A stretch of DNA of 64,000 nt from Ochotona curzoniae (Eukaryota > Chordata > Mammalia > Lagomorpha > Ochotonidae), in contig NW_024465885.1 in assembly GCF_017591425.1 (NCBI RefSeq), positions 37,146,501-37,210,500 on the forward strand. Reading direction: 5' to 3'. Below the pieces are notes generated by a model. That model saw only the letters and a list, made by a program, of their open reading frames with translations. It ran no database searches and was not told the DNA's origin. This document shows, one piece after another, positions 3,245-56,470 of this stretch; positions within the stretch are counted from its first letter, which is position 1, and every line of letters begins with the position of its first letter. The position numbers and the translations under genes are program-made.

Positions 3245-3581
3245 GGGCCCGGTGCGGTGGCGCAGTGGTTAAGGTCCTCACCTTGCACGCCTGGGATCCC
3301 ATATGGGCGCCGGTTCTAATCCTGGCAGCCCCGCTTCCCTTCCAGCTCCCTGCCTGTGGCCCGGGAAAGCAGTCGAGGACGGCCCAAAAGCTTTGGGACC
3401 CTGCACCTGTGTGGGAGACCCGGAAGAGGCTCCTGGCTTCGGATCGGCATAGCATCGGCCGTTGTGCTCACTTGGGGAGTGAATCATTGGACGGAAGATA
3501 TTCCTCTCTGTCTCTCCTCCTCTCTGTTATCCGCCTTTCCAATAAAAAAATAATAAAAATAAATCTTTAAAAAAAAAAAAA
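3245..3581 (+). repeat. Young full-length C-type SINE nested in L1
   Basis: Starts with GGGCCCGGTGCGGTGGCGC, carries the pol III B-box-like GGTTCTAATCC near 3312, and ends in an AATAAAAAAATAATAAAAAT-type tail at 3541-3581. It interrupts the 3' UTR of the minus-strand L1, so it inserted after that L1. I found no exact flanking duplication. Confidence 0.9.
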
Positions 3582-3714
3582 GCCCCAACATAACATCCGC
3601 AACAATCCACAACGTCATGGAATTAGTGGACATAGTATTGAGTAACCAGTATGTTAAAAAAAAATTTACATTTTACAGGTAGTATTTTTCATACTGACAT
3701 CATCTCATCTTAAA

Positions 3715-14954: not shown

Positions 14955-15967
14955 GGTTGAAAGAATTGGTTTAGTCTTCTGTTGTCATTTCACTGGGATG
15001 TTCTTCCCACTTGCCTTTGGTTTTGGTAGGTGCTATTCCTCTTCTCTGTCAAGAGAACATCTTGAAGTATCATTTGTAGGGCAGGTTTGGAAGAGGCAAA
15101 TTCTTTGAACTTTTCTTTACTCTGGAAGAGTTTTATTTTATTTTCAAAGATAAAAGAAAGTTTTGCTGGATATGTTATCCTAGGCTGACAATTTTTTCTT
15201 TTTCAATCTGGAATATGTCACTCCATTCCCTTCTTGCCTGTAGAGTTTCCTGTGAGAGATCTGTGAGCTTAATTGGCATTCCTTTATATGTCAATTGATG
15301 TTTTTCACGTGCACATTTAAGGATCTTTTCCTTATGTTTGATTCAAGAGAGCTTGATTATCATGTGTTGTGGTCAAGATCACTTTTGATCAAGCCTGTTG
15401 GGAGTTCTGTGCCCTTCCTGGCTCTTGTTTCCCAGTTCTTTCTCCAGATTAGGGAACTTTTCCTTGATTATTTCATTAAATACATTTGCAAACTCAGCTT
15501 CTCTTTCTGCACCTTCTGGGACTCCCATAACTCTTCTATTTGCCCTCTTCATAGTGTCTTTCAATTCTTGAATACTTTTTTTTGGCCTGATCCAGCTCTG
15601 CTTCCAGCTTTTTGTTTATTTCCCCCTGATGACAGGAAATATCTTCCAATTCTGAGAGTCTTTCTTCTGCTTGCTTCATTCTCTTTTGGAGACTCTCCAC
15701 TGTAGTTTTCATTTGCTCTACTGTGTTCTTAATTTCTGATATATCAGCCTTGATTTGCTTTATTGCCTCCTTAAATTCTTTGAACTGTTGTATGTGTTTC
15801 TCATTTTTGATCAGAATCTTTAAAATGAGTCTTATGGATTCTGTGTCCCCCATTTTCTCGATGTCTTCCTCAGTGAACTCTGAGGCTGGCGTAGGGTTTT
15901 GCTCCTTTTCCAGGGAGTTTTTGGTAATATTCATTGTGCCTTTGTCTGTTCTTTTGCTCTTGGTCAT
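14955..15967 (-). pseudogene. L1 ORF1 (RNA-binding chaperone), frameshifted
   Basis: Starts with a Met at 15967. The first 143 codons include a long charged coiled coil (KEAIKQIKADISEIKNTVEQ and neighbours) typical of the trimerisation region. The frame shifts near 15540-15564 at a T-run on the + strand, then continues with ANRRVMGVPEGAEREAEFAN, the RRM-like domain (the GVPEG motif is diagnostic for ORF1p). The C-terminal domain follows in shifted frames at about 15300-14960 (LQARREW and PAKLSF motifs). It is not functional as written. Confidence 0.85.
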
Positions 15968-17257
15968 TGCACTTCTGGTTAGCAGAGTTTTCTCCTTGGG
16001 GCAGGTTTCTAAGCTGTGTCACCCATAGGTCTCCAATGCGATTTTACTGATTGAAGTTGGTACACAACTTTTTGCTTGCAGCCACTTGTGTCACAACCTC
16101 CAGTGAGTTCCAGGTCTGGGTTCTTATGTTAGATTTTTACTGTGGTCTCCACAGCCCTGGCTCTTGGCTCACCACTCTCCACCTCCTGTGATAACCGTGC
16201 TGAGGCTGCACTGTTGTCTCTGCCACCTTTCTCCCACTTTCGGTTGGAGCAGGTCCAAGGATTAGGGGAGACACCAGATGTCCTACTTAGTTAGGTTGTT
16301 GGTGGCGCTGATCTTGTCAAACTTTTGGACATTAGGTCTGGATGCCACATAGACTTATTTTGACCGGTACAATGCCACATTTGGTATTATTTTTCTGCAG
16401 GATCAGTGCAGTCCATGGACCTCAGCAAGTTCTCATGAGCTCAGCACATGCGCAGTTCACTGTTGTCCCCTGCAGTCCTAAAGCTATTGCCACAGTGTGC
16501 AAAATGGCGCCTGACGTACCACCACTACAGTTCTTGATCTGCTGGCCTGCCAGCAGATTTAAGGGCTATCCAGACCTGCCCCTGGTGGAACTTGTAGAAT
16601 TTTATGTCGTTGCAGTTCACTGAGTCAGAAATGAGCTTACTCCCAGCTCAGAGCATGCTCAGTCCTTTCCCTTGCCCTTTTCTCCCTACGCAAAATGGTG
16701 TCCAATTTGTTCTTGGGGGCTGACTGGGCTATGAAATCCACCCTGTTCTCGCACTGCCTGTCTGGGATCTGCTGCTCGGTCTCTGTTCTTGGTCAAATCA
16801 AACGGACCAGCAGGACAGACATTTCTTTGTCTGTGTTCAGCTCCCAAGCTCCCAGTGAAAGTCCCTCCCCACCTGGTTGCTGGTGGAGTTTTGGCTCTGC
16901 TGGAGTTCAGATCGCTGTTAAGTGAATGCTGCTGGAGTATGAGTCACTGCAACACCACAGCATTGTGTCCACTGCTTTCCTGTGTCTGTCAGTCTCCAGG
17001 TACCCCTCTGCTGTTGTTCTGTCCTTTCTTATTTCCTGCAAAGTGCCTTCTCTGCTTTATCTTGATTAAATATTTTTCTGTCCGTTTGATCCTGTCCTTA
17101 TCCTGTTCCGCCATCTTGATTCTCTGATTTCACTCTTTAGAAATGTGTATTCTGTCTATTGTGACAGAATGTGGAAAGCAGTTGTTTAAAATAAGAAAAC
17201 TGTTTTTACTTTTGGTCCTTGTAATTTGGTAATATTCTTGTCATGTTGTCAAATCAG

Positions 17258-17450
17258 GAAACAATGGACAGATCCAGCTATGGCAGTTTTTACTAGAACT
17301 CCTTACTGACAAAGATGCTCGAGACTGTATTTCCTGGGTTGGTGATGAAGGTGAATTTAAACTAAATCAACCTGAGCTAGTTGCTCAAAAATGGGGACAG
17401 CGTAAAAATAAGCCTACAATGAACTATGAGAAACTCAGTCGTGCATTAAG
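17258..17450 (+). CDS. GABPA: GABPA coding exon: first two-thirds of the ETS DNA-binding domain
   Basis: The exon completes a glycine codon and reads [20 protein letters not shown], then [20 protein letters not shown] and [20 protein letters not shown], ending RAL plus two bases of an arginine codon before GTAAGT at 17451. It contains the three spaced tryptophans of the ETS winged helix-turn-helix (LWQF, CISWVG, KWGQRK) and the recognition helix [11 protein letters not shown]. The second of the two core GGA-reading arginines is split by the following intron. This covers about residues 315-379, fully conserved as far as I can judge. Confidence 0.97.
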
Positions 17451-18205
17451 GTAAGTATTTATTGTATTTCTTCCCCTAACTAGAGATAGCATTTTATTCT
17501 AGGTGTAAGCTTTCTATATAATTGTAAAGTACAAGTTCATATCATTTTCTTTATAAATTAAAAACAATAAAATTTGCATGCATGTTATATTAAAAATAAG
17601 CTTATAAAAATGCCTTAGCTACTTTGGTGTACACAGCTTTTCAAAAAGATTATTCTAAGATCATTTGTTAAAAAAAAAAGATCATTTATTTTATCTGATT
17701 TAAAAACATGTAATACTCTTCAGAACAAAAATGTCATAATCTTTGGTATTTTTGTTGTTTGCATAGCAGAAGATGCTATCATTTGCATGCATGAATTGAA
17801 TGTCAATTTTAGCAAAATGTGAATACTGTATTTATAAGTGCCTTTTTCATCCTCCTATCTGCCTAAGTCTGAATATCATAAAATTGTAATTGAATAAAAT
17901 TCTTAAGACTGTAGGAATAGTATAAAAAGTTTTTGACAGTTTTGTCTGTAACATTGTACTTAGTATAATGATGAAAATTCATGATGTAAGCTTAACGTAT
18001 TTAAGAAGGATGATGTGTAGGATAACATTGGATTATGCATGTGAATTTTTGGGATGTAGTTACAGTCAAATAGTTGTGCATTTTGTCTGTTCAGGTAATG
18101 TGCCTTTTATTGTTTCATGTTTCACTTTACTGTGGTGTGTGAACTTCACACTGGGATGTGATTTGGCTTTCATCAGGCTCCTTCCCCACCCCACCCTGTA
18201 ATTAA

Positions 18206-18574: not shown

Positions 18575-18815
18575 ATAATTAAGATGTGGGGGCAGATCTC
18601 TGCTTAAAACCCTGCTGGAATACCCACGAACTGTCCGAGTGTTTGGGTGTGAGTCTTGGTTATGCTTCTAAGTCCGGCTAATGCACACCATGGAGGAGCA
18701 AGTGAGGACTCAGACTTGGGCCTCCCGCATTGGAAGCCCAGATTGCCCTATCTTTGGGGCTTAAGGAGGATGGAAATCTGTGTCTCATTCTGCTTTTTCA
18801 GATAAAATTTTAAAA
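18575..18815 (+). repeat. Old C-type SINE
   Basis: Sense and diverged. GGGGGCAGATCTCTGCTTAA, GGCTAATGCACACCATGG and the GATTGCCCTATCTTTGGGG region follow family order. Confidence 0.5.
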
Positions 18816-31225: not shown

Positions 31226-31509
31226 GACTTCATCTTTTAAAAACCTGGCTTTAAATTAATTTGCAAGTAAAGGCTTGTTTAACGTGCTTGAGTACTGGTA
31301 AAACCTGTAGTGAAAAGACCATGTTTTTGGTTCCAATTTACATGAAGAAAAACTTGCAAAGCAAAACAAATAGGTAGTAGAGAGGAAGAAACGAAATTAT
31401 TTTTTAATGGGTATTAAGTTTCAAATGTATAAAAGGTAAAAAGAATCGTTGTGCAATGGAAATACACAGCAATATCAAACTACTTTAAAATGTTTCCGAT
31501 GGTAAATTT

Positions 31510-31870
31510 TTTTTTTCTTATTAATAAATTTTATTTTGACATTCTTTACATAGTTAATTAGGGTAAGAAGGTTCAAGGGCTACAGGAAAGTGGATAATAC
31601 TAGTATGTTTTCCATATTGTTAGCTTCATATTCAAAGGGGGGTATTTAAGGGAAAAGCCCACCCAATTTCCCACCCTCCCCAGGTCCCGGATATAGGGCA
31701 TGCTCTGAGGTTCTTGCTCAAGTGGTCTTGATATTGCCACAGTTATGAATCACTGTCAATCTTGCCACTCCAAGCACTATGAGATCTTTGAAAAATCCAC
31801 TGATTGACATAGTCCATCATAGCTGAGATGGTTGGTTGACCTGTTCTGTCTTCTCTCTTTTCTTGGTTAG
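31510..31870 (-). repeat. 3' tail of the composite retroposon
   Basis: Minus-strand 3' end. Plus-strand landmarks are TTTACATAGTTAATTAGGGT, AGAAGGTTCAAGGGCTACAG, GGCATGCTCTGAGG and GGTTAGGGTTCTGAGTCCAG. The same blocks in the same order recur at 55988-56400. The AATAAA hexamer lies about 20 nt before the A-tail. Confidence 0.85.
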
Positions 31871-33736
31871 GGTTCTGAGTCCAGCATTTAGATTAGGAAG
31901 ATCTCCAAAGAAACTTCTTGTATGTGCTAACAAGTACAGGGCCTGGCACCGTCCATCGCTCCAATCAGCTGGTGGTTGCAATTCCTGGGTTGGTTCTGTT
32001 TTCACTCCCGACTTCCACTGGAACCAATGGGTGTTGCAGTCCAGCCTGGTTCTGCCCATCACATACTTGGCCCTCACCTAAACCAGCAGGAGCTGTAGTC
32101 TAGGTTGGAGCGACCCACAATAACCCCAACCAGGCCCAACCCCTACCCTGGTTTGCCAGTAAGTGTAGCAGTAATCCAGTCTGTCCCACATCCCATTCCA
32201 CCCCAGCCGCTGTCTTAGTTTTATGTCCTCCCATGGAAGTGGTAACCCAAGAGGGATGAGCCCACTATTTCCCTCCCAGGCCTCTCCCACTCCCAGATTC
32301 CAGTTGATGCTGCCCAAACAAACCTCGCCCACTTTAATTTTGTTTGCACCAGTAGGAATAATCTGCCCAGCCTGGCCTTTCCCTGATCTAGTCCAAATGA
32401 GGTGCACAGGTGTGGTAGCTCTGCCTAGTCTGGTCTGCCCCCATCCCAGCCCATGCTCTCCTGTGGAAGTAGCTGTCCAGCAAAGGAACCCTCCCTTATT
32501 CCCCTGCCAGCTCTGCCCACTTCCTTTCTTGTTCTCAGGCTGGTTGGGCGCTGCGGTCCCTTCCGGTACAGGCAACCTCACCTCGGCATTCCATAATGTG
32601 CACTAGTCTTTGTTGCGACCGAACCTGGGTCGACCCACACTGGTGCCTGGATTTGCCAGTGGATGACGTGGACAGATTCAGCCTGGTCTTGCCCCCACGT
32701 CTGCCAATTGTATGCCAGTGGGTAGTTTTCCATGGCTTTTTCTGGGCTGTTTCCTATCATGTTTCTTGCGTTTACCTGCTGGGTCTGTGCCCTGCCAGAG
32801 GAGTTGCCCAGGCTCCTCCATCAGAACCTCTCCCAATGCCAGGTTTCACGCTTACCAGTGGGTCCATGAGCCAACCCTACTCAGTCCACCTCCTGTCATA
32901 GCAGGAACTGTGGCTTTTCCTGACTGGCCTTCAACCCAATCTGGTTCTTGCTGTTGGATGTTCCAGCCCAGACATGGTTTGTCCATACCCACGTATGGCT
33001 CACACATGGCTCAGTAGGGGTTTGAGACCCTGCCTAGTCCATCCCACATCTGCCCTGGTCCTCCAGAACACCAGGGGGAGTCGGGGTCCGGCCCAGTTCG
33101 GTGCATTCAATCCCAGTCCACACTCGTGCCAAGGGAGACTACAACTGTTTCCAGATCAGAACGCAGCCCCCTTCCAGGCCACGCGCCTCTTGGTGGGAAC
33201 CTCAGCCCAGCTAGGGTTGTCCCCTTTGCTCCCCAACCGGGTCTGTTCCCAGCCATAGATCACATGCCTGCCAATGGATGCTCTGACTCAGCTTGGCACA
33301 GCCCCTCCCCTGTCCCGAACTCTGCCTTAGACACTGTGGCTTAGCGTCCCAGGCTCCCACAGACCAGCAGGTACAAGAGCCTAGCTCGGCATGACCTCTG
33401 CTCCCTCCTGGTTTCTAGTTTTACTTGTGGGCTAAGGTTTGCTCAGTCGTGCCTAATCTACTCTGTTCCATTACCAGTTGACACTTTGGCCAGCTGTTGG
33501 AGCTACTTGTGCAGGACAAGCCCCAAGCCATAGCTTCTGCATGACTGGTATTTGGTGCTCAGCATTATTAGTGATTACAAGTTTTGCTAAGGAAGAGTTA
33601 CTGCCTGTTTCAGGTCCAAGAAGCACAATGGGTTCAACCTGGAGCTAATTAAGCAGCAACTCAAAGAACCAAATCCCCAGAGCTCCCGGGCCGGGCGGCC
33701 AACAGGCGGAGCCTGGCACCAATGGCGCACTGGCCG
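31870..33736 (-). repeat. Degenerate repeat (VNTR-like) middle of the retroposon
   Basis: A (G/A)CCA(G/A)TGGGTG-like motif recurs at about 32023, 32155, 32299, 32348, 32655, 32714, 32854, 33270 and 33471, often followed by CAGCCTGGTCTGCCC-like text. It looks like an old, diverged tandem array rich in C and T on this strand. The longest minus-strand open frame is 167 codons (32581-32078) and is low-complexity, with no family I recognise. I judge it non-coding. Confidence 0.65.
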
Positions 33737-33990
33737 CCCGGGGAGAACGGCTCACCATGTGCCCATGGCGGCCGTCCGGGATCCAGGCATGAGACGCCCC
33801 GTCCTGAGACCCACCAGCTGCCAGCCGGGTGCTGGAGGTTTAAATAACCCAGGCCCAAGGTCGCGCCCCTCCCAAATCCCATTCACCGCCCCATGAAGGC
33901 GGCGGGTGGGCCCCGGACCTGCCCAGTCCCGGAGGCCTCCCCCCCTCGGTCTACTCACCCCGAAGGAAGCGGCCCCCGAAACCCAGCAGG
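33737..33990 (-). promoter_or_regulatory. Candidate promoter unit (one monomer, representative)
   Basis: On the minus strand a monomer contains, in order: a GGGGCGG GC box (complement near 33888), GGGAGGGGCGCG, a TATA-like TTATTTAAA (33847-33839), GCCGCCATGGGC (33774-33763; YY1-like and also a strong start context, but the ORF from that ATG stops after 4 codons), and splice-donor-like ATG|GTGAGC and GGG|GTGAGT. Repetition of such units at the 5' end is how monomer-type L1s carry their promoters. Function is inferred from motifs only. Confidence 0.45.
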
Positions 33991-36355
33991 CCCGGGGAGA
34001 ACGGCTCACCATGTGCCCATGGCGGCCGTCCGGGATCCAGGCATGAGACGCCCCGTCCTGAGACCCACCAGCTGCCAGCCGGGTGCTGGAGGTTTAAATA
34101 ACCCAGGCCCAAGGTCGCGCCCCTCCCAAATCCCATTCACCGCCCCATGAAGGCGGCGGGTGGGCCCCGGACCTGCCCAGTCCCGGAGGCCTCCCCCCCT
34201 CGGTCTACTCACCCCGAAGGAAGCGGCCCCCGAAACCCAGCAGGCCCGGGGAGAACGGCTCACCATGTGCCCATGGCGGCCGTCCGGGATCCAGGCATGA
34301 GACGCCCCGTCCTGAGACCCACCAGCTGCCAGCCGGGTGCTGGAGGTTTAAATAACCCAGGCCCAAGGTCGCGCCCCTCCCAAATCCCATTCACCGCCCC
34401 ATGAAGGCGGCGGGTGGGCCCCGGACCTGCCCAGTCCCGGAGGCCTCCCCCCCTCGGTCTACTCACCCCGAAGGAAGCGGCCCCCGAAACCCAGCAGGCC
34501 CGGGGAGAACGGCTCACCATGTGCCCATGGCGGCCGTCCGGGATCCAGGCATGAGACGCCCCGTCCTGAGACCCACCAGCTGCCAGCCGGGTGCTGGAGG
34601 TTTAAATAACCCAGGCCCAAGGTCGCGCCCCTCCCAAATCCCATTCACCGCCCCATGAAGGCGGCGGGTGGGCCCCGGACCTGCCCAGTCCCGGAGGCCT
34701 CCCCCCCTCGGTCTACTCACCCCGAAGGAAGCGGCCCCCGAAACCCAGCAGGCCCGGGGAGAACGGCTCACCATGTGCCCATGGCGGCCGTCCGGGATCC
34801 AGGCATGAGACGCCCCGTCCTGAGACCCACCAGCTGCCAGCCGGGTGCTGGAGGTTTAAATAACCCAGGCCCAAGGTCGCGCCCCTCCCAAATCCCATTC
34901 ACCGCCCCATGAAGGCGGCGGGTGGGCCCCGGACCTGCCCAGTCCCGGAGGCCTCCCCCCCTCGGTCTACTCACCCCGAAGGAAGCGGCCCCCGAAACCC
35001 AGCAGGCCCGGGGAGAACGGCTCACCATGTGCCCATGGCGGCCGTCCGGGATCCAGGCATGAGACGCCCCGTCCTGAGACCCACCAGCTGCCAGCCGGGT
35101 GCTGGAGGTTTAAATAACCCAGGCCCAAGGTCGCGCCCCTCCCAAATCCCATTCACCGCCCCATGAAGGCGGCGGGTGGGCCCCGGACCTGCCCAGTCCC
35201 GGAGGCCTCCCCCCCTCGGTCTACTCACCCCGAAGGAAGCGGCCCCCGAAACCCAGCAGGCCCGGGGAGAACGGCTCACCATGTGCCCATGGCGGCCGTC
35301 CGGGATCCAGGCATGAGACGCCCCGTCCTGAGACCCACCAGCTGCCAGCCGGGTGCTGGAGGTTTAAATAACCCAGGCCCAAGGTCGCGCCCCTCCCAAA
35401 TCCCATTCACCGCCCCATGAAGGCGGCGGGTGGGCCCCGGACCTGCCCAGTCCCGGAGGCCTCCCCCCCTCGGTCTACTCACCCCGAAGGAAGCGGCCCC
35501 CGAAACCCAGCAGGCCCGGGGAGAACGGCTCACCATGTGCCCATGGCGGCCGTCCGGGATCCAGGCATGAGACGCCCCGTCCTGAGACCCACCAGCTGCC
35601 AGCCGGGTGCTGGAGGTTTAAATAACCCAGGCCCAAGGTCGCGCCCCTCCCAAATCCCATTCACCGCCCCATGAAGGCGGCGGGTGGGCCCCGGACCTGC
35701 CCAGTCCCGGAGGCCTCCCCCCCTCGGTCTACTCACCCCGAAGGAAGCGGCCCCCGAAACCCAGCAGGCCCGGGGAGAACGGCTCACCATGTGCCCATGG
35801 CGGCCGTCCGGGATCCAGGCATGAGACGCCCCGTCCTGAGACCCACCAGCTGCCAGCCGGGTGCTGGAGGTTTAAATAACCCAGGCCCAAGGTCGCGCCC
35901 CTCCCAAATCCCATTCACCGCCCCATGAAGGCGGCGGGTGGGCCCCGGACCTGCCCAGTCCCGGAGGCCTCCCCCCCTCGGTCTACTCACCCCGAAGGAA
36001 GCGGCCCCCGAAACCCAGCAGGCCCGGGGAGAACGGCTCACCATGTGCCCATGGCGGCCGTCCGGGATCCAGGCATGAGACGCCCCGTCCTGAGACCCAC
36101 CAGCTACCAGCCGGGTGCTGGAGGTTTAAATAACCCAGGCCCAAGGTCGCGCCCCTCCCAAATCCCATTCACCGCCCCATGAAGGCGGCGGGTGGGCCCC
36201 GGACCTGCCCAGTCCCGGAGGCCTCCCCCCCTCGGTCTACTCACCCCGAAGGAAGCGGCCCCCGAAACCCAGCAGGCCCGGGGAGAACGGCTCACCATGT
36301 GCCCATGGCGGCCGTCCGGGATCCAGGCATGAGACGCCCCGTCCTGAGATCCACC
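33737..36355 (-). repeat. Tandem array of 254-bp GC-rich monomers, 10.3 copies
   Basis: CCCGGGGAGAACGGCTCACC starts at 33737 and then every 254 bp (33991, 34245, 34499, 34753, 35007, 35261, 35515, 35769, 36023, 36277). The last unit is cut after about 75 bp. Copies are essentially identical. I noticed one substitution, G to A at 36106 (CAGCTACCAG for CAGCTGCCAG), and a C to T near the cut end. CpG-rich in an otherwise AT-rich region. 254 is not divisible by 3, so the repeated 85-86 codon open frames cannot fuse into one long repeat protein. Confidence 0.97.
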
Positions 36356-36369
36356 CCGATGGTAAATTT

Positions 36370-39285: not shown

Positions 39286-39960
39286 TGAAGAGTCTTGTTA
39301 ATCAACCAAATACAATGCATGATCTTAACTTGAATCCTGATTGCAAAAACGGAGATATTTCAGAACCATCGAAACCACTTGAGCAGAACTCTCGGAGCAT
39401 GCTGCACTTGTGGGACCCTGGGCTGACACCAGGTGGCTGCCCTCCATCCCCGGGTACTGAGCAGTGAGAAGACTGAAGGCAGTTTCTCCCTTTCTCTCCC
39501 CCTTGACCTCAGATCCAGGAAGAAAAAAAAATCGGAAACAATGGTCTCATTCACTTTCCCTTTTGCCTCGAACTTTTCCACTCTAATTAGGGTCCACATG
39601 CACATGAATCCTTCTCAAGTATGTAAACATTAAAAAATAAAAAGAACAACTGGGACAGTGGAGGAAATCTAAACACGGGATAGTTGAAACCATGAAGGGA
39701 TTTCTTTGCACTCTTTCATGTTTGATGATAGGATGGTTGTAGGAAAGGAAGGCAGGAAGGGATGGAATTTGTCTTTTGCCACAGTATATTGAAATAAAGA
39801 TTAAATAATGTAATGTTTAGTACTTGCTCTGGAATATTTTTTTGGTAGGTGGGCTGGAAAAAGACTGTGTACCAAAAGCTGTTGAAACTTGGTGATGGTT
39901 GCATGGATGTGCATTGTACCCTTCAGTAATCAGTATGAGTGAAATGTTTCTATGAAATAA
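39286..39960. other. Stretch without recognised features
   Basis: Contains short GGAAGG-type purine runs near 39745. No gene or repeat assigned. Confidence 0.5.
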
Positions 39961-40892: not shown

Positions 40893-41226
40893 CAGGTCCT
40901 GGTGCAGTGGCCTAGTGGTTAAAGTCCTCGCCTTGGATGCGCTGAGATCCCATATGGGCACTGGTTCTAATCCCAGCAGCTCCACTTCCCATTCAGCTCC
41001 CTGCTTGTGGCCTGGAAAAGCAGTCGAGGATGGCCCAAAGCCTTGGACCCTGCACCCACATGGGAGACCTGCAGGAAGTTCCTGGCTCCTGGTTTCAGAT
41101 TGGCACAGCACTGGCCGTAGCGGTCACTTGGGGAGTGAATCATTGGATGGAAGATCTTCCTCTGTCTCTCCACCTCTCTGTATATCTGACTTTCCAATAA
41201 AAATAAATAAATCTTTTTTTTAAAAA
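40893..41226 (+). repeat. C-type SINE with near-perfect 12-bp TSD
   Basis: AAGATTATATCC (40881-40892) and AAGATTCTATCC (41227-41238) match at 11 of 12 positions. Sense copy with CTGGTTCTAATCCCAGCAGC and a CCAATAAAAATAAATAAATC tail. Confidence 0.9.
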
Positions 41227-41239
41227 AAGATTCTATCCA

Positions 41240-52733: not shown

Positions 52734-53071
52734 GGTTTTTTAAAATTATTATTTTTAAAAGATTTACTTATTTTTATTGCAAAGTCAGATATACAGAGAA
52801 GGAGAGACAGAGAGAAAGATCTTCTGTCCTATGATTCACTCCCCAAGTGACCGCCACGGCAGGGACTGCGCCAATCCAAAGCCAGGAACTCTTCCGGGTC
52901 TCCCACGCAGGTGCAGGGTCCCAAGTCTTTGGGTCATCATTGACTGCTTTCCCAGGCCACAAGCAGGGAGCTGGATGAGAAGTAGAGCCACTGAGACTAG
53001 AACTGGCGTCCATATGGGATCCCAGCACGTTCAAGATGAGGCCTTTAGCTGCTAGGCCACGGCACTGGGCC
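52734..53071 (-). repeat. C-type SINE with 10-bp TSD
   Basis: CCAGACCTTC at 52724-52733 and 53072-53081. Antisense copy: GCAAAGTCAGATATACAGAG, GGAACTCTTCCGGGTCTCCC and CACGGCACTGGGCC end. Confidence 0.9.
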
Positions 53072-53084
53072 CCAGACCTTCTTT

Positions 53085-55987: not shown

Positions 55988-56470
55988 AGTTTTTTTTTTT
56001 TATTTTGACAATCTTTACATAGTTAATTTGGGTAAGAAGGTTCAAGGGCTACAGGAAAGCGGGTAAGATTATTATTTCCATATTGTTTCCTTCATGTATC
56101 TGAGGTAAATGGGGATATTAAGGGAGAAGCCCCACCCAGTTTCCCATCCACCCCAAGTCCCGTACGTGGGGCATGCTCTGAGATACTCGCTCAAGTGGTT
56201 TTGATAGTTCACCAGTTATGATTTGCTGCCAATCTCACCTCTCCAAACACGATGAGGTAGTTGAAGAATCCACTGATGGACATTGTCCACCATAGCGCCT
56301 CCATTTGCCCGGCATTTTGCTGCCAACATATAGCTGAGGTGGTTGATGGACTTGTTCTGTCTTCTATCTTTTCATGGTTAGGGCTCTGAGTCCAGCAGTT
56401 TGACCCGAGGGGAGCAGCGCCGGAGCCCAGGCAGGCTTGGGTCCAGCTCACCACGTGCACGTGGTCAGCA
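55988..56470 (-). mobile_element. Short relative of the composite retroposon
   Basis: T-run at 55992, then TTTACATAGTTAATTTGGGT, AGAAGGTTCAAGGGCTACAG, GGGGCATGCTCTGAGATACT and GGTTAGGGCTCTGAGTCCAG in the same order as 31510-31870. After that it passes directly to CCCGAGGGGAGCAGCGCCGG and AGCTCACCACGTGCACGTGG, which resembles the monomer text CCCGAAGGAAGCGG...GGCTCACCATGTGCCCATGG. It lacks the 1.8-kb middle and the array. It also has about 40 bp (56296-56336) absent from the big copy. No clear TSD. Confidence 0.7.

Follow-up and report, generated by a model that had tools for sequence, protein, structure and literature searches.

A dispersed modular retroposon of the pika Ochotona curzoniae, with a monomer array as its predicted promoter and L1 as the likely means of its mobilisation

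SVA retroposons are described as composed of a CCCTCT hexamer, an Alu-derived part, a 35-50 bp variable number of tandem repeats (VNTR) and a HERVK10-derived part (PMC5753468), and elements of the SVA type are termed specific to hominoid primates (PMC4432496, PMC7353768). For mouse L1, the 5′ termini of loci are stated to tend toward certain nucleotide positions (PMC9022269), and SpIREs are presented as L1 copies integrated from a spliced transcript of the element (PMC5860796). Among the titles and abstract openings returned by a limited literature search, none describes a composite retroposon of pika or rabbit. Here, we analysed 64,000 nucleotides of the pika Ochotona curzoniae (NCBI RefSeq assembly GCF_017591425.1, contig NW_024465885.1, positions 37,146,501 to 37,210,500 of the forward strand; this whole stretch is hereafter the window), and in particular the insertion at its positions 31510-36355. 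This insertion very probably represents a recent copy of a non-autonomous, L1-mobilised retroposon family, of which the monomers would serve as TATA promoters and splicing would be a side route. The evidence, all of it genomic sequence, consists of dispersed copies with a fixed order of parts, target-site duplications (TSDs), poly(A) ends, 5′ truncation, a constant 5′ start and one spliced product.

The insert is 4,846 bp long, runs on the minus strand from 36355 down to 31510, and is flanked by a perfect 14-bp TSD (CCGATGGTAAATTT at 31496-31509 and 36356-36369, with no further occurrence within the window). The sense strand carries ten complete 254-bp monomers, then the 80-bp partial one and a linker, and after these about 1.6 kb in which faint degenerate repeats occur and a 383-bp end; the fixed body of this copy amounts to 2,226 bp and closes with AATAAA and poly(A). 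The parts are as follows.

36356-36369, minus strand: TSD on the element's 5′ side, in sense AAATTTACCATCGG, an exact 14-bp repeat with two occurrences in the window.
33816-36355, minus strand: the array of ten complete monomers of 254 bp, each interpreted as a TATA promoter with a first exon; the insert begins at monomer position 1 (GGTGG).
33736-33815, minus strand: 80-bp partial monomer and fixed array/body boundary, the same (position 79-80) in 15 of 15 arrays.
31893-33735, minus strand: body, with the linker and about 1.6 kb holding degenerate repeats (by profile), intron-like, common to 14 other array loci.
31510-31892, minus strand: 3′ end segment of 383 bp, AT-richer, with the poly(A) end, also present in older copies.
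31658-31688, minus strand: G-rich tract, a candidate quadruplex by pattern only; a similar tract occurs in an older copy.
31530-31535, minus strand: AATAAA polyadenylation signal, beginning 26 bp before the 3′ end.
31496-31509, minus strand: TSD on the element's 3′ side, an exact repeat.

One insertion event, as an earlier note on this DNA had claimed, is borne out by the single perfect TSD that encloses the whole insert and by the AATAAA and poly(A) at its 3′ end. The ten monomers counted in that note stand as well, but the partial monomer lies at the 3′ end of the array and not at its 5′ end; when the array is phased on the base with which the insertion begins, the unit that had been taken for a 5′ partial monomer is a complete one. 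Tandem Repeats Finder (TRF) returned a single array (33736-36355, period 254, 10.3 copies), and the monomers, with 70% GC and 19 CpG apiece, are identical in nine cases when phased on the insert's 5′ end, the first one differing by 2 bases. The old degenerate repeats noted in the body exist but are weak: an iterated profile gathered 7 members versus 1, 3 and 1 in three shuffles, and TRF found no tandem array in that part. Comparison with the window's own repeats yielded no clear part from another mobile element besides the element's own relatives, an Rfam scan of the window at gathering scores gave no match, and the RNA fold of the 3′ segment was not more stable than those of shuffled sequences (z 1.32; 93 of 100 shuffles folded equally well or better).

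The insertion belongs to a family and is not a one-off. In the window's own genome (2.08 Gb, 1,389 contigs), the monomer query gave at least 392 matches (best 36 of 477 candidates scored), with 20 contigs among the matches listed. The 383-bp 3′ segment gave 2,546 first-look candidates, the best 40 of which were scored and are all, the window included, 99-100% identical; the linker gave 2,961, the best 40 scored, again with the window, being 98-100% identical. First-look candidates, here and below, are not confirmed copies. The dispersed copies with the same 3′ tail that had been expected earlier are present in all 40 scored tail matches, and the dispersed loci with tail plus monomers exclude the contrary case, a single genomic copy. 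Comparison of the 3′ flanks of 29 tail loci (L026, of which the anchor was not found, being left out; L and C numbers are our handles for loci and contigs) revealed two identical pairs (L017/L024 and L018/L025), and the distinct insertion sites number 27 by our reading and 25 by script; three further flanks grouped by the script, 77-85% alike over shifted stretches, are read by us as repeats shared between flanks.

The order of the parts is constant. All 15 arrays that were read through (the window, L039, L041, L042, L043, L044, L076, L078, L081, L082, L083 and L085-L088) pass from the monomer into the same body at monomer position 79-80. The remaining five of the 20 listed array contigs lack a junction read: L040 (C647) and L080 (C292) ended inside the array, and on C1359, C298 and C1239 the 3′ segment adjoins the array on the expected strand. 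The window's body recurs in the 14 other array loci, five of them read whole or nearly whole and nine partly, and its first part is less similar in L082 (92.5%) and L086 (84.5%); six body copies are 0.44-2.79% apart (Kimura two-parameter distance, K2P) and fall into two groups. The near-identical 254-bp units could in themselves suggest a satellite array that was inserted into or beside an unrelated old repeat. This is hardly conceivable, given that one duplication encloses both array and body and that the same junction, with whole-number arrays, occurs at unrelated sites.

The array might also be the monomeric 5′ untranslated region (UTR) of an autonomous L1 subfamily, the copies seen here being internally deleted L1s. 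The 3′ segment, with its G-rich tract and AATAAA, resembles L1 3′ UTRs, and monomeric L1 5′ UTRs are reported for mouse and certain other mammals (PMC9022269). We consider this very unlikely: the 15 arrays read through all enter the same body, which is free of L1 frames, and in none of them do the monomers precede the two L1 open reading frames (ORF1 and ORF2), the arrangement that marks a monomeric L1. The stretch at 15539-17130, by eye an L1 5′ part, shows no monomers. Two L1 3′ UTR pieces of the window match the tail at chance level (44 and 186 of 500 shuffles reach the score), and 130 translated L1 frames of the window gave short and weak matches to the body, the best with E 0.002 over 10 residues. 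The former statement that the insert has no sequence in common with the window's L1s holds for the two 3′ UTR pieces compared.

No conserved coding frame was found in the sequences compared. A Pfam search with a 167-codon frame gave nothing at E up to 1. A 193-codon frame at about body positions 1417-1999 is open in four of six young copies (C906, C411, C519 and C53; L039 and L041-L043) and broken in the window copy. In the older copies it carries 26-33 inserted bases in 18 of 19 aligned (2 in L060) and stops in 13 of the 19, non-synonymous codon changes outnumber synonymous ones in all 19, and no signs of constraint were found. The judgement that the element has no coding capacity is upheld, with the frame that is open in four of the six young copies as a caveat.

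Each of the ten complete monomers contains one TATA box, that of the first being:

36125-36132, minus strand: the TATTTAAA box in monomer 1, of which each of the ten monomers has one; it starts 31 bp ahead of position 1 of the following monomer.

The insertion begins exactly at monomer position 1, which, in the phase of a preceding unit, lies 31 bp downstream of the first base of TATTTAAA. A shared 5′ architecture, which had also been expected, is evident from the 5′ ends within monomer sequence, since 11 of the 12 young copies read start at position 1 (the window, C1366, L031, L077, L079, L084, L089, L090, L092, L093 and L095), a count that leaves out copies truncated in the body and L091, which was not read to its end. 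Therefore, with a TATA box and a constant start in independent insertions, the monomers are read as putative TATA promoters with a fixed start; a fixed start of transcription would be expected to yield just such a constant 5′ end behind a TATA box. In C411 and L031 the duplication ends one base before monomer position 1, and the intervening base is G, which would fit the copying of an RNA cap. The motif GCCGCCAT at monomer position 44 resembles a YY1 site, and published work deals with YY1 and mouse L1 Tf.

The monomer number varies, as had been anticipated. By the end coordinates, only some array interiors having been read, the counts are whole to within 2 bp (2, 2, 4, 4, 5, 5, 10, 10, 16 and 21), the truncated copy C1359 holds 1.87 monomers, and the match spacing on C1239 implies at least 32. 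The arrays of the window copy and of C1366 both hold exactly 10 monomers that belong to one variant (100% matches), and the two bodies are 0.44% apart; therefore, both copies probably derive from one source and received its array intact. Changes at positions 241, 244 and 245 are found in the first monomers of C906, C411 and C1379.

Based on these findings, we propose that each monomer could be a promoter for RNA polymerase II, the TATA box of which would place the start 31 bp further on, at the first position of the monomer that follows; both the promoter activity and the involvement of this polymerase we infer from the genomic layout. The transcript would then cross whatever monomers are left, followed by the fixed body and the 3′ segment, and would be polyadenylated after AATAAA. 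Finally, L1 proteins would insert the polyadenylated RNA by target-primed reverse transcription. As a new copy would begin at +1 without a TATA box of its own upstream, its own transcripts should begin at monomer 2, and each round would cost one monomer, except where the array expands or a promoter in the flank contributes. We suggest, tentatively and with some doubt, that the array could constitute a built-in counter, in that each round of retrotransposition would remove one whole promoter unit and lineages would persist only where the array regrows; if so, monomer number would record generations, and long arrays would mark source elements. Array growth may also have launched the young burst, in that the sole older long insertion read has about one monomer and the young ones have 2-21 or more; within this small sample, long arrays appear to be characteristic of the young form.

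L1-type insertions have TSDs of about 7-20 bp that differ in sequence from locus to locus. Of the 18 copies tested, 12 show duplications of 10-22 bp in which no more than one base disagrees (counted without a shuffled control), and this accords with the expectation that the copies would have TSDs of their own. The nick sites are mostly T-rich, with TTTT/AA exact in 3 of 12 and poor fits in C53 (TTCC/AA) and L031 (TCTC/TA), and A-rich 3′ ends are seen in the copies. The tail served to fetch 30 loci, that of the window among them: 13 (11 distinct) break off inside the body, L031 alone is spliced, and the other 16 extend up to, or close to, the limit of the fetched stretch. The duplications, poly(A) and 5′ truncation most likely reflect the work of L1 machinery on an RNA that is not its own, and L1 would be the supplier of that machinery; L1 relics occur in the window itself, where the frame at 4949-5335 matches LINE-1 ORF2 proteins (E 5.5e-33). 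Promoter-like repeats and a polyadenylation signal occur in long terminal repeats (LTRs) too, and the insert might be taken for an LTR element, or for the solo LTR of an endogenous retrovirus with internal repeats. This is highly improbable, since the insert has no terminal repeats besides the target duplication and ends in poly(A), copies are 5′-truncated, and the duplications measure 10-22 bp and not the 4-6 bp typical of LTR elements. As a separate observation, the 3′ ends of L020 and L012 have non-A bases between the first A-run and the remaining 3′ flank, and in L020 a second A-run precedes the duplication, which comes about 31 bases further on, as would be expected of a 3′ transduction.

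Two older relatives lie in the window:

55993-56464, minus strand: second, older, spliced-looking copy, with monomer-like sequence (56404-56464) joined to the 3′ segment (55998-56403).
39362-39642, plus strand: third, very old, 5′-truncated copy of the 3′ segment (profile match E 5.7e-20; best of 20 shuffles 0.057).

Across 366 ungapped sites, the tail of the copy at 55993-56464 and that of the young form agree in 83.3% (K2P 0.19). The exon-1 similarity of this older copy has a score of 31 against a shuffle mean of 17.5, reached by 3 of 5,000 shuffles in one scoring scheme, and is above all 5,000 in another; 0 of 294 GC-rich controls reached it either way, and a plain profile search of the window gave it no better than E 0.24. 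The same copy has 38 extra bases in the 3′ segment, flanked by a short repeat; these bases are absent from the young form (31510-31892). With this copy as query, 6,685 first-look candidates were obtained in the genome, and the best 40 scored comprise itself at 100% and 39 at 89-94%. Among the 30 older loci fetched, the longer pieces of body and tail mostly share 72-86% identity with the young form. By their shared flanks, three loci (L096, L097 and L099, extensions of L055, L051 and L047) represent one and the same older insertion; this holds a nearly full monomer and a partial one, and the TATA-like GTTTAAAC of its monomer lies 30 bp before the next monomer. L098 starts close to the beginning of the last partial monomer. 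The copy at 39362-39642 is more diverged still than that at 55993-56464; the lineage is therefore long-lived. A candidate fourth old copy at 18733-18782 (E 0.012) was rejected as near chance, the best of 20 shuffles reaching 0.057. On C527, C549, C550 and C353 and in L062, L064 and L069, an older element recurs with the same match coordinates and nearly equal identity, and the flanks of L062, L064 and L069 are nearly identical, as if borne by a large duplicated or tandem block; therefore, older-copy counts are inflated there.

The monomer and body of the window copy hold the following predicted splice sites.

36294-36295, minus strand: GT of the second-best donor in monomer 1 (ATG^GTGAGC, monomer position 61, in each monomer); L031 used the homologous site.
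36243-36244, minus strand: GT of the top-scoring donor in monomer 1 (GGG^GTGAGT, position 112, in each complete monomer), scored with a weight matrix.
32072-32074, minus strand: AG plus the first exon-2 base, homologous to the L031 acceptor (GTGAG^GGCC) by comparison with L031.

Judged by its junction, L031 is a GT-AG spliced young copy: monomer positions 1-60 are joined to body position 1744, the removed piece starts with GTGAGC and ends with GTGAG, the predicted spliced product and L031 have 2 mismatches in 90, and the duplication is an exact 22 bp. Three older copies (55993-56464, L049 and L050) have diverged monomer position 111 joined to the start of the 3′ segment, beside the best-scoring donor, the splicing pattern fitting on the donor side only. 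Splicing would accordingly rank as a side route that yields short copies without most of the body. The donor sites in the monomer and the spliced copies would also suit a retrocopied host long non-coding RNA that turned mobile, with the monomer as its promoter and first exon, the body as intron and the tail as last exon; this is a possible though rather unlikely origin, and it differs from the retroposon history proposed above in origin, the mechanism being the same. Three older loci (L067, L072 and L074) start at most about 6 bases from the start of the 3′ segment and are preceded by unrelated sequence, with no monomer.

Several observations weigh against the proposed promoter, splicing and L1 route. 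The loci were drawn from the best matches, and are biased to young, intact copies. Start, splice and polyadenylation sites are predictions from genomic sequence. The lone exception among the 12 readable young 5′ ends, L094, starts at monomer position 33, and arrays may also have grown after insertion. By the test used, 6 of the 18 copies gave no duplication, and in L017 and L020 the 3′ copy of the duplication lies 44 and 31 bases past the tail end. The removal of a GT-AG piece is clean for L031 only, its junction having a one-base ambiguity. In 22 of 24 unspliced older copies the bases before the junction are AA and not AG; AG occurs in the two others, L069 and L075, the flank of L069 being the same as that of AA copies. 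Because of these AA acceptors, clean GT-AG removal is limited to L031.

With respect to GABPA, the insertion is antisense and sits some 4 kb downstream from the last coding exon of this gene, the coding exons of which in the window (plus strand) are at 466, 17254-17451 and 26877 to about 27100; the ETS-domain exon was assigned by its best match, PDB 1awc (E 2.2e-37), and the others by motif. The minus-strand stretch at 15539-17130 shows by eye a coiled-coil ORF1-like frame and a non-monomeric 5′ UTR, and Pfam and PDB searches gave no L1 match for it. About 20 copies of one repeat of about 330 bp, resembling a short interspersed nuclear element (SINE), are present in the 64 kb (for example 3245-3598, 40893-41234 and 52744-53074), and a 'tRNA-Pro' call of ARAGORN at 40900-40985 falls inside one of them. 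A bacterial promoter scan was set aside as not applicable to this genome. As a contamination check, viral contigs and species genomes were scanned with exact patterns, and phages and plasmids with the body; nothing was found.

The element is best viewed against three described systems. Like the SVA, LAVA, PVA and FVA elements of apes, it is non-autonomous and modular, has no conserved protein and includes a repeat array, and it shares with them poly(A), L1-type duplications, 5′ truncation and spliced variants. Unlike in SVA, from the description of which it is set apart, the array unit of the pika element measures 254 bp, has 70% GC, bears a TATA box and stands at the 5′ end. With the mouse L1 monomer promoters (A, Tf and Gf), as characterised in PMC9022269, it has in common tandem promoter units at the 5′ end in variable number; in contrast to these, nearly all its readable starts coincide at a single base behind a TATA box, and L1 frames are absent downstream. 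As in the SpIREs described in PMC5860796, an insertion appears to stem from spliced RNA of the element itself, whereas here the spliced RNA would be non-coding and the removed part is most of the body.

An SVA-like design reached elsewhere would let one ask what makes a non-coding RNA a good passenger of L1, and a promoter-array element with spliced offspring would bear on how arrays are kept up and on whether monomer number limits activity; copies so young may, moreover, be polymorphic and usable as markers. The parallel that the earlier note drew with SVA holds for an array-bearing, non-coding element with L1-type insertion, but membership in SVA or in the monomeric L1s is not established. 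The observation itself is confirmed and the interpretation in that note is largely right: the pika element would function like SVA, with a promoter resembling that of monomeric L1s.

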